DNA of 64,000 nt from Pseudanabaena mucicola str. Chao 1806. GTDB lineage: Bacteria; Cyanobacteriota; Cyanobacteriia; Pseudanabaenales; Pseudanabaenaceae. Positions 18,084-22,069 of this stretch are shown piece after piece (the first letter of the stretch is position 1; each line of letters begins with the position of its first letter). The stretch lies in assembly GCF_030323025.1 (NCBI RefSeq), contig NZ_CP097329.1:2424501-2488500 (forward strand), in the 5' to 3' direction. The notes beneath the pieces are model-generated. The model had not been told where the DNA came from, did not search any database, and worked only from the letters and a program-made list of their open reading frames with translations. The position numbers were made by a program, and so were the translations under genes.

Positions 18084-19373
18084 ATGGCTCTAGAGCCTTG
18101 CACAGAAGTTCCTGCCACCAATATTGATAAGACCACCGATCTCTCTGTACTCAAAGAACGTGGACAGAGGGAGGTTTTTTGTGGCTTGACGGGAATCGTC
18201 TGGCTACATCGCAAAATGCAGGATGCGTTTTTTCTGGTGGTAGGCTCACGTACCTGCGCCCATTTGATTCAATCTGCGGCTGGAGTAATGATTTTTGCCG
18301 AGCCGCGATTTGGTACAGCGATACTTAACGAAAGGGATCTGGCTGGACTGGCTGATGCCAATGAAGAGCTAGATCGTGTTGTTGATCAACTATTAGAGCG
18401 CCGTCCTGATATTGGTACTCTCTTTTTAGTCGGATCTTGTCCCTCCGAGGTGATCAAGCTAGATCTTGGCAAGGCAGCCGAACGCTTGAATCAAAGATTC
18501 TTTCCTAAGGTGAGAATTCTCAATTATTCAGGTAGCGGCATCGAAACTACATTCACTCAGGGAGAAGATGCTTGTCTGGGATCAATGGTTCCCGTACTGC
18601 CGCGTAGTCAAGATGAACCAAGCTTGATGGTGGTAGGTAGCCTTGCGGATGTAGTGGAAGATCAATTTCAAAGAATATTTGACAAGCTAGGGATTGGACC
18701 TGTTTATTTCTTCCCACCCCGCCGTGCAGCCAAATTACCGCCTATTGGTAAAGGGACAAAATTACTATTGGCTCAGCCTTTTCTTAGTGATACTGTGCGA
18801 TCGCTCATATCACGTGGGGCAGCTTTACTGTCATCACCCTATCCTTTTGGTATTGAAGGTACTACTGCATGGCTAAAAACAGCCGCCGATGCGTGGGGTG
18901 TCGATCAGCAAAAATTTGAAGAAGCGATCGCCCCATCAGTCAATCGTGCCAAGATTGCCATAGAGCGCTATCGTCAATCACTAACAGGTCGTAAGGTCTT
19001 TCTCTTCCCCGATTCACAACTAGAAATTCCTCTAGCGCGTTTCCTTTCAAGAGAATGTGGCATGGATCTGGTCGAAGTCGGCACACCATATATTGATCGC
19101 CTGTTGATGGACAGTGAAATTAATCTATTACCAATCGGTACGGCTCTTTCGGAAGGTCAGGACGTGGAAAAACAGCTAGATCGCTGTCGCGCTAACCGAC
19201 CTGATATTACGGTCTGCGGTCTAGGACTCGCGAACCCCCTCGAAGCTGAAGGCATGGCAACAAAGTGGTCAATTGAATTAGTCTTTTCACCAATTCACGG
19301 TTATGACCAAGCCGCCGATTTAGCAGAGTTATTTGCGCGTCCACTTGAGAGACGCAGAAGATTAACAGTTTAA
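18084..19373 (+). CDS. chlN: Light-independent protochlorophyllide reductase subunit N, BchN type
   Basis: 429 residues. With ChlB forms the catalytic NB protein of DPOR, which reduces the D ring of protochlorophyllide in the dark. The cluster ligand cysteines are present: C33 (VFCGLTG), C58 (SRTCAHL) and C119 (GSCPSEV). The sequence [39 protein letters not shown] is, by memory, nearly that of Rhodobacter BchN and unlike cyanobacterial ChlN ([28 protein letters not shown]). It is shorter than cyanobacterial ChlN (~465) and as long as proteobacterial BchN (~425). First gene of chlN-chlB-chlL; AGGAG 10 bases before the ATG. Confidence 0.92.
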
Positions 19374-19422
19374 GTAGAGTGTGAAGCAGTCTACTTAAAC
19401 ATATTTTTTATTGATATAACCT

Positions 19423-21105
19423 ATGGAACTAACTCTCTGGACTTACGAAGGTCCTCCCCATGTGGGAGCGATGCGAATTGCAACTGGTATGGAAGGAGTA
19501 CATTATGTACTTCATGCGCCGCAGGGCGATACCTATGCCGATCTGCTATTTACGATGATCGAACGACGTGATCGCCGTCCACCTGTCACCTATACCACTT
19601 TCCAAGCTCGCGATCTTGGTGGTGACACTGCCGAGATGGTCAAGACATCGGTACGCGATGCATACGAGCGCTTTCTGCCGCAGGTCATGCTCGTTGGTGA
19701 AAGTTGCACAGCCGAACTGATTCAAGATCAACCAGGTTCGTTAGCGAAAGGGATGAAGTTACCAATTCCCATTGTTAGCTTGGAATTGCCAGCTTATTCC
19801 AAAAAAGAAAATTGGGGTGCAAGTGAAACCCTCTATCACCTAGTTCGCACTTTACTTTTACCCCTTGTGCCACCACCGAATACGCATAAACCTAAACGTG
19901 AAGCCCATATTCGCCCGAAAGCAAATATCATCGGTCCTACGGCTCTAGGTTTTCGGTGTCGTGATGATATTCGGGAGGTAGTTAAGTTATTGGCGGAAAT
20001 CGGTGTCGATGTAAATGTAATCGCACCAATGGGCGCAACTCCCGATGACTTGTTACGGATTCCCGATGCCGATTTTAATATTTGTCTCTATCCTGAAATT
20101 GCGCTTACTACTTGCAATTGGCTCCATCGCAGTTTCGGACAGCCTACAATTAAGACTGTACCGATTGGCGTAGGTGCAACCCGTGACTTTATTGCTGAAA
20201 TTGGTAAGGTTGCAGAAATTGATGTCAGTGAAGCGCTGAAGCGATCGCAGTCTGACACATTGGGCAATTGGGATGTATCGCGCCTATCGTCAGCCAATAA
20301 TCCTAATGCTTCACGATTGCCTTGGTACTCGAGATCGGTGGATTCCACTTATTTAACTGGTAAGCGGGTATTCATTTTTGGTGATGCGACCCATGCCCTC
20401 GCCGCCGCAAGAATTGCCACCGAGGAGTTAGGATTTACCCTCGTAGGCATTGGCACATATAGCCGTGAATTTGCACGTGAAGTGCGTGAAGTTGCTAAAA
20501 AGCATGGACTTGAAGCCGTGATTAGTGATGACTATTTAGCTGTGGAAGCCAAGGTTGCGGAAGCGGCTCCAGAACTAGTGCTGGGTACTCAAATGGAACG
20601 CCATATTGCCAAACGTTTGGGTATCCCTTGTGCGGTAATTTCTGCGCCAATCCATGTACAAGACGTTCCCGCCCGTTACTCACCGCAAATGGGTTGGGAA
20701 GGTGCGAATGTCATTTTTGATAGCTGGGTACATCCTCTGATGATGGGGCTTGAGGAGCATTTAATTGGCATGTTCCGTGAAGACTTTGAGTTTGCGGAAG
20801 GTCATATGAGCCATCTGCATACTGCCCCATCTCAGGATGCACGACGCGAATCATTAGTGACATCACAGGTGATCGCCACAACAGGTAGCTCTAACCAAGC
20901 TGTCCTCGCACCTGTTGATCAAGCCGTTGTCCAAGCGGTTGATGGCATTACTTGGAGTGCGGATGGTGAAGCTGAGTTAAAGAAGATTCCCTTCTTTGTC
21001 CGCGGCAAAATCAAGCGCAATACTGAGAAGTTTGCGAGCGATCGCGGCATCAGCACGATCACTCTCGAAACTCTCTATGAAGCAAAAGCAGCGATCGGCA
21101 AATAA
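19423..21105 (+). CDS. chlB: Light-independent protochlorophyllide reductase subunit B, BchB type
   Basis: 560 residues. Partner of ChlN in the NB component; supplies the aspartate ligand of the NB cluster, D36 in [12 protein letters not shown], at the same position as in Rhodobacter BchB. The N-terminus [23 protein letters not shown] and [24 protein letters not shown] follow the proteobacterial type, not the cyanobacterial one (MKLAYWMYAGPAHIGTLRV). The C-terminal [18 protein letters not shown] region is the substrate-closing tail. The gene lies 49 bases after chlN with a small hairpin between. Length exceeds the ~508-525 of either group by about 40 residues, mainly in the segment [14 protein letters not shown] before the tail. 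Confidence 0.92.
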
Positions 21106-21166
21106 CTTCATTGAGGCGCTATGCGCCTCAATGAATAAAAAATTATTTTTACATTAGGAGTTTATT

Positions 21167-22069
21167 TTGGTAGTTGCAAACGTTCGTCCCCCCGTTGTGA
21201 ATAAAGGCGAAGATGGCGAAGGCAGTCTTCAAGTACATCAAGACCCATCGATGGTGATTGAAGGAGCCTTAGTCATTGCTGTCTATGGCAAAGGCGGCAT
21301 TGGTAAATCCACCACTTCTTCTAATCTATCGGCAGCATTCTCCCATCTTGGTAAGCGTGTATTACAAATTGGTTGCGATCCTAAACATGACAGCACCTTC
21401 ACTCTCACTAAGAGAATGGTTCCTACAGTTATCGACATTCTTGAAACCGTTGACTTCCATTCTGAAGAATTACAAACTGATGACTTCATGTTTGAAGGTT
21501 ATAACGGTGTGATGTGTATCGAGGCAGGTGGTCCTCCCGCAGGAACGGGATGTGGAGGATATGTCACAGGTCAAACCGTAAAGCTACTCAAAGAACATCA
21601 TTTGCTTGAAGATACTGATGTGGTCATTTTTGATGTATTAGGTGATGTGGTCTGTGGAGGATTTGCTGCACCATTACAACATGCCCATTATTGCTTGATC
21701 GTGACTGCAAATGACTTTGACTCAATTTTCGCGATGAATCGGATTGTGGCGGCAATTCAATCGAAAGCGAAGAACTATCGTGTGCGTCTTGGCGGTATCA
21801 TTGCTAACCGTAGTGAAGGAACCGATCAGATTGATAAGTTTAACGAGCGTGTAGGATTGAAGACTCTGGCACATTTCCGAACTGTTGATGCAATCCGTCG
21901 CAGTCGTTTGAAAAAATGTACTGTATTTGAAATGGACCCCGAACCAGAGGTTTTAGCTGTGCAGCAAGAATATCTCAATCTTGCTAAGACGATGTTAGAA
22001 AGTGCTGAACCTCTCTACGCTCAACCCCTCAAGGATCGTGATATTTTCGACCTCCTTGGTTTTGACTAA
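21167..22069 (+). CDS. chlL: Light-independent protochlorophyllide reductase ATP-binding subunit L, BchL type
   Basis: 300 residues. NifH-like ATPase that delivers electrons to the NB protein. P-loop [14 protein letters not shown]; the [4Fe-4S] cysteines shared by the homodimer lie in GTGCGGYV and [26 protein letters not shown] matches BchL. The N-terminal extension with [10 protein letters not shown] is a feature of proteobacterial BchL. Translation starts at TTG 21167, six bases after TAGGAG; the next ATG (residue 29) would delete the conserved extension. A MITE is inserted immediately behind the TAA stop. Confidence 0.92.

Follow-up and report, generated by a model that had tools for sequence, protein, structure and literature searches.

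The window, by which we mean the whole 64,000-nt stretch of DNA that was analyzed, belongs to the 4.53-Mb genome of Pseudanabaena mucicola str. Chao 1806, which is assembled as one contig. It contains an operon for a dark-operative (light-independent) protochlorophyllide reductase (DPOR), with the following features.

18084..19373, + strand: DPOR subunit N (BchN type), 429 aa; open reading frame (ORF), over cut-off for NCBIfam PRK02842.1 and TIGR01279
19423..21105, + strand: DPOR subunit B (BchB type), 560 aa; Asp36 presumably the fourth ligand of the cluster; ORF, over cut-off for TIGR01278
21107..21135, + strand: 13-bp perfect inverted repeat (hairpin) between B and L, folding at -21.4 kcal/mol
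21167..22069, + strand: DPOR subunit L (BchL type), 300 aa; ORF, over cut-off for TIGR01281

As the sequence-only reading had stated, the three genes are contiguous in the order N-B-L, their ORFs being uninterrupted and all on the + strand. The L gene starts with TTG, preceded by AGGAG at 21156-21160, and encodes an N-terminal tail with the motif DGEGS; both the tail and the start region are conserved in the genus. Since each subunit scores over a curated NCBIfam cut-off, the three proteins belong to the DPOR family. For B, the score is 603.5 bits against TIGR01278 (cut-off 490.35), while PRK02910.1-4 is narrowly missed (900.1 against 912).

The residues expected of the enzyme are in place. 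Among 72 aligned rows, Cys58 and Cys119 of N are found in all and Cys33 in 71, the remaining row having a gap, while Asp36, Cys95, and Asp307 of B and Cys117, Cys129, and Cys163 of L are found in all 72. We take Cys33, Cys58, and Cys119 of N, Asp36 of B, and Cys117 and Cys163 of L to be the cluster ligands. This predicted ligand set is complete in the window proteins. Roles of cluster residues in DPOR are given in part in PMC7948495. By analogy with known DPOR biochemistry, the L dimer would bind ATP and dock on the NB heterotetramer, and electrons would pass from the [4Fe-4S] cluster of L to the NB cluster, held by the three N cysteines and Asp36 of B. NB would then carry out the dark reduction of protochlorophyllide at its ring D, and the light-dependent reductase (LPOR), which is also encoded, could serve in light and air.

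The hairpin has counterparts elsewhere. When bchB-downstream folding was compared in the window and in loci L138-L142 and L057-L061, the 60 nt 3' of the bchB stop folded at -15 to -27 kcal/mol in all 11 Pseudanabaena loci, with a sequence that varies by species. As a background, 10 of 45 window ORFs, bchB among them, reach -14. The hairpin may be due to chance, or it may act as an attenuator or as an mRNA stabilizer setting the L to NB ratio.

Enzyme type and native genes

The proposal that this operon is of the purple-bacterial BchNBL type is borne out by bit scores and phylogeny. N scores 603 bits against 2YNM (Prochlorococcus, itself purple type), 574-580 against structure chains that we take to be from Rhodobacter, and 256 against 2XDQ, presumably the canonical DPOR of Thermosynechococcus. 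The corresponding values are 776, 644-699, and 328 for B, and 540 (2YNM) and 462-464 (presumed Rhodobacter chains) for L. In a tree of concatenated N, B, and L with 72 rows, purple and Gemmatimonadota sequences group with the window, whereas the eight canonical rows are set apart by a saturated branch. The window genes are thus outside the cyanobacterial ChlLNB line.

Canonical ChlLNB would, by homology, catalyze the same reaction, and the presumed cluster residues are common to both types. However, the window proteins share only about 51-55% (L), 30-41% (N), and 32-36% (B) identity with it. In the canonical cyanobacteria examined, chlL lies near chlN with chlB elsewhere, as the sequence-only reading had noted, and the DGEGS tail is missing; in the window, N-B-L are together and DGEGS is present. 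Both gene order and tree position thus set the operon apart from canonical ChlLNB. The tail motif looked for as a mark of the purple type was DG[E/D]GS. With row groups assigned from record titles, DGEGS occurs in all 13 picocyanobacterial L rows and in 16 of 17 Pseudanabaena-type rows, the exception being Dolichospermum with ESEGS. The Gemmatimonadota group (10 rows) has DGEGS in six and DGDGS in four, and the other purple-type rows (24) have DGEGS in 19 and DGDGS in four, one row being unreadable there. Neither motif is found in the eight canonical L rows. In contrast, Asp36 of B, which had also been put forward as a purple-type mark, is not diagnostic because all eight canonical B rows have it.

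The purple-type genes are the only DPOR genes that we found in the genome. Searching all 4.53 Mb for a second, native chlL/chlN/chlB set yielded none: N gives one match, the purple-type copy, and B and L give one full copy each, also purple type, the remaining matches being short or weak. We therefore think it very probable that the sole DPOR found is a xenolog, an ancestor having gained a purple/Gemmatimonadota-type N-B-L operon and lost its native chlL-chlN and chlB. Base composition gives no sign that the genes arrived recently. GC is slightly above the range of 20 neighboring ORFs (0.351-0.465) for N (0.474) and B (0.486) and within it for L (0.442), and third-position GC (0.36-0.41) falls inside the neighbors' range (0.25-0.43). 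A recent transfer is thus unsupported by composition.

The purple type extends through the genus, being found in 22 of 24 sister genomes; the two others are incomplete (82% and 76%). Among 10 genomes from other genera of the family, five gave canonical matches (one partial) and four gave none, while the tenth (G033) yielded just a 66-residue fragment (85%). When 24 selected genomes were examined for B, we found only a full purple type in 15, only a canonical type in four, and fragments, a remnant, or no full copy in five; two intact B types were found together in none of the 24. LPOR scores over cut-off in all 24 genomes checked, and DPOR is therefore not the sole route to chlorophyll there.

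Spread and ancestry of the purple type

The case is less singular than first implied. In a class-wide draw of 388 genomes, 100 match at E<=1e-60. With the canonical G481 (39% identity) set aside, 99 carry the purple type. They comprise 24 genomes of the window genus, 64 of family f2, seven of f13 g167, two of f20 g175, one of f1 g2, and one of f28 g39. The operons of g167, g175, and g39 resemble that of Pseudanabaena. We infer that f2 is the picocyanobacterial family, from its small genomes and from a Synechococcus row (L117) that groups with f2 rows. Two g2 genomes, G025 and G032 (98% and 97% complete), yielded no DPOR N and no full B but keep LPOR, an apparent complete loss of DPOR; another g2 genome, the metagenome-assembled genome (MAG) G596, carries a Pseudanabaena-type operon.

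Two known systems are most like the window operon. The DPOR of Prochlorococcus and marine Synechococcus (2YNM) likewise consists of purple-type proteins with a DGEGS tail in a cyanobacterium, and 15 of 17 picocyanobacterial loci are contiguous N-B-L without bchH, as in the window. However, picocyanobacterial N is 63-72% identical to the window N and forms a separate, well-supported branch, and LPOR lies 1.1 to 1.6 kb from the operon in the f2 genomes G348 and G263 as against 1.2 Mb away in the window genome. The bchF-N-B-H-L-M segment of purple-bacterial and Gemmatimonadota photosynthesis gene clusters has the same subunit types in the same N-B-L order, and Gemmatimonadota N is slightly closer to the window N (73-75% identity) than that of picocyanobacteria. 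Gene order was judged by the B-to-L distance at loci with all three genes. A gap the size of bchH separates B from L in all 10 Gemmatimonadota loci and in 43 of the 48 other purple-type loci (four of the 48 are contiguous and one is unclear), whereas the distance stays below 0.7 kb in every one of the 23 Pseudanabaena-type loci (among which two pairs are the same MAG records) and in the 15 of 17 picocyanobacterial loci. The window has no such gap, and neither bchF, bchH, bchM, nor ppsR adjoins its operon, which is therefore not a purple-bacterial photosynthesis gene cluster.

Canonical cyanobacteria served as outgroup in the 72-row tree, and all trees were built without Chlorobi, Chloroflexi, Acidobacteria, and heliobacterial sequences. 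For the most careful one, we kept 47 of the 72 rows, dropping 8 canonical rows and 17 that were long, near-duplicate, or surplus. In this tree, the cyanobacterial purple types come together (support 97/92) and are joined by Gemmatimonadota (100/99); the 72-row concatenated tree unites the former as well (95). The likeness to Rhodobacter in the sequence-only reading holds insofar as the window proteins are far nearer to the purple type than to the canonical one. However, their nearest relatives are other cyanobacteria, including picocyanobacteria, followed by Gemmatimonadota, and a direct Rhodobacter-like source is not supported. Accordingly, the claim of horizontal acquisition stands as to foreign origin, a complete operon, and replacement of the native set, while its source was too narrowly drawn. 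Together, the comparisons support a foreign type that has spread among cyanobacteria, as far as sequences can tell; the operon would have moved from one cyanobacterium to another, taking the native enzyme's place.

We considered whether there might have been two imports, picocyanobacteria and the Pseudanabaena-type lineages each having received the operon from related outside donors, with only a later spread within cyanobacteria to Dolichospermum and perhaps to g167 and g175. This is consistent with the single-gene trees, none of which (N, B, or L) places every cyanobacterial purple type in a single group, while N and L weakly join the Pseudanabaena type with Gemmatimonadota (46 and 69). In the 47-row set, a clade of the Pseudanabaena type and Gemmatimonadota to the exclusion of picocyanobacteria is compatible with the data (p 0.22), and one of picocyanobacteria and Gemmatimonadota lies near the limit of rejection (p 0.059). 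Since the concatenated trees unite the cyanobacterial types and both groups have N-B-L without bchH, we regard two imports as possible rather than probable.

The direction of transfer from purple bacteria to cyanobacteria rests on published work, since our own root leaves it ambiguous. Placing the cyanobacterial purple types outside all others is not rejected (p-AU 0.65) and even improves on the free quick tree by 8.35 log units, the canonical outgroup being saturated. This slight gain in likelihood would fit a reverse or older history, where the type is old in cyanobacteria or comes from an unsampled common source, purple bacteria and Gemmatimonadota are recipients, and the canonical carriers have lost it. 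Such a history is nevertheless improbable. The distribution is patchy (the 99 of 388 genomes fall mostly in one family and one genus), the two intact B types coexist in none of the genomes checked, and a midpoint-rooted drawing nests the cyanobacterial types. Moreover, in Ward & Shih 2021, picocyanobacterial DPOR is described as transferred from Proteobacteria, with trees that place the genes in a Proteobacteria clade.

Contamination or misbinning of bacterial DNA would also produce purple-type genes in cyanobacterial assemblies, and some carriers are indeed fragmentary (G474, G596, which is 90% complete and 5% contaminated, and G636, which is 7% contaminated) or represented by MAG contigs (L063 and L068). 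However, the window genome is one contig, where the operon is flanked by a DUF554 gene and an ABC-transporter-like permease ORF (the latter named by eye), and neighboring genes are conserved among several Pseudanabaena genomes. The operon of G508 lies on a 4.72-Mb contig, and that of a Dolichospermum genome (G153) on a 5.15-Mb contig with sister-like DNA on both sides. Contamination is thus untenable for the window and G153, an exclusion that does not extend to G596 and L063, and as a general explanation we consider it extremely improbable.

Probable replacement in a Dolichospermum strain

Among 16 genomes of the Nostocaceae-like genus g39, canonical chlN is found in 14, none is found in one (G100), and the purple-type operon occurs in a single genome, that of the bloom-former Dolichospermum flos-aquae CCAP 1403/13F (G153). 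Its operon, at locus L137, is laid out as follows.

5497-6405, minus strand: L
6459-8156, minus strand: B
9697-11028, minus strand: N

A TnpB/IS605-type ORF lies between N and B. On one side of the operon lies a radical-SAM/DUF3641 gene and on the other a gene with tRNA thiouridylase MnmA domains; both flanks are 90-94% identical to relatives. The site measures 6.1 kb in G153 versus 1.5 kb in Anabaena sp. WA102 (G291), and two other relatives (G176 and G123) have the same site without the operon. Phylogeny places the insert among Pseudanabaena copies. Dolichospermum falls within Pseudanabaena in the 47-row tree (95/98), among Pseudanabaena rows in each of the separate N, B, and L trees, and again in a DNA tree of N (36 rows, five identical ones dropped; fork 93/95). 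Pseudanabaena rows alone as one clade are rejected (p 5e-5), in a set that excluded M5B4 and Dolichospermum, which is why that rejection alone is no test of the Dolichospermum placement. In addition, a 78-bp stretch upstream of the G153 N gene matches Pseudanabaena, and a leader may therefore have come along.

Two of the native genes of this strain survive as remnants. At the chlL-chlN site, about 1.26 kb is missing, with transposase ORFs nearby; only the last 41 residues of chlL are left there and nothing of chlN was found. Of chlB, 352 bp encoding the last 116 residues remain, 94-95% identical to relatives. In contrast, chlL, chlN, and chlB are all full-length ORFs in G115, G198, and G176. 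WA102 has full-length chlN and chlB, whereas its chlL is in two overlapping frames (locus L225, about 6369-7257), due to either assembly error or decay; we therefore dropped it as a clean comparator for chlL in favor of G176, which has intact genes and an operon-free site. G100, where no chlN was found, retains only a remnant of chlB, interrupted by an in-frame stop (C56:4420-4791), so that DPOR was apparently lost in another genome of the genus. Given this remnant and the two-frame chlL of WA102, the native genes could equally well have been lost before the purple type came in or been displaced by it directly.

The imported genes are under strong purifying selection, since dN/dS is 0.02-0.06 between G153 and either Pseudanabaena G023 or the window. 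Synonymous divergence from G023, the nearest Pseudanabaena row compared, is about 1; therefore, either the transfer took place some time ago or the actual donor is missing from the sample. The import retains the BchL tail, which is absent from all eight canonical ChlL rows.

Implications and associated small elements

This kind of event was already known from picocyanobacteria; what the present analysis adds is its extension to further lineages and a replacement that can be read in Dolichospermum. A literature search, mostly without subscription journals, found no foreign DPOR in Pseudanabaena or Dolichospermum and no replacement scars. Histories of photosynthesis draw on chlorophyll-synthesis genes; nevertheless, several cyanobacterial lineages have here exchanged all three genes of one such enzyme, in one case inside a living genus whose scars are still legible. 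Relatives with and without the import thus offer a natural experiment on the reasons for the exchange.

The tail is of particular interest. According to Corless et al. 2020, the L tail in Rhodobacter covers the [4Fe-4S] cluster as long as no ATP is bound, and ChlL has no conserved tail, with the BchL-like ChlL of P. marinus as the exception. Our data widen that exception to several lineages and provide oxygen-evolving hosts in which to probe the role of the tail, a question that the same paper leaves open. As a hypothesis only, the imported tail might help the enzyme in oxygen-making cells. A bolder version, which we doubt on balance, is that a traveling DPOR operon repeatedly displaces the native enzyme of oxygenic phototrophs; it would move as a single cassette, leader included, and be favored because a self-masking L or single-operon control suits swings between anoxic nights and oxygen evolution. 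It would cover picocyanobacteria, Pseudanabaena, genera of two further families, and one Dolichospermum strain. If true, the suggestion in print of the tail as an adaptation to anaerobic cells, with P. marinus as sole exception, would need to be reversed.

Several smaller features were also noted. A gene with an SRP54 domain lies near the operon in Pseudanabaena, and a 56-58% relative lies beside that of G485; we did not use it as a trace of transfer to g167 because genes of this kind are common. A unit of about 180 bp (L137, about 1265-1450) is repeated dozens of times along the G153 chromosome. In the window, the inverted 15-mer TGATGTTACGTGGAA (six matches versus none expected) bounds three small elements, at 405-506, 22069-22226, and 51411-51560, that are probably copies of a miniature transposable element. 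The second of these starts on the final base of the L gene.
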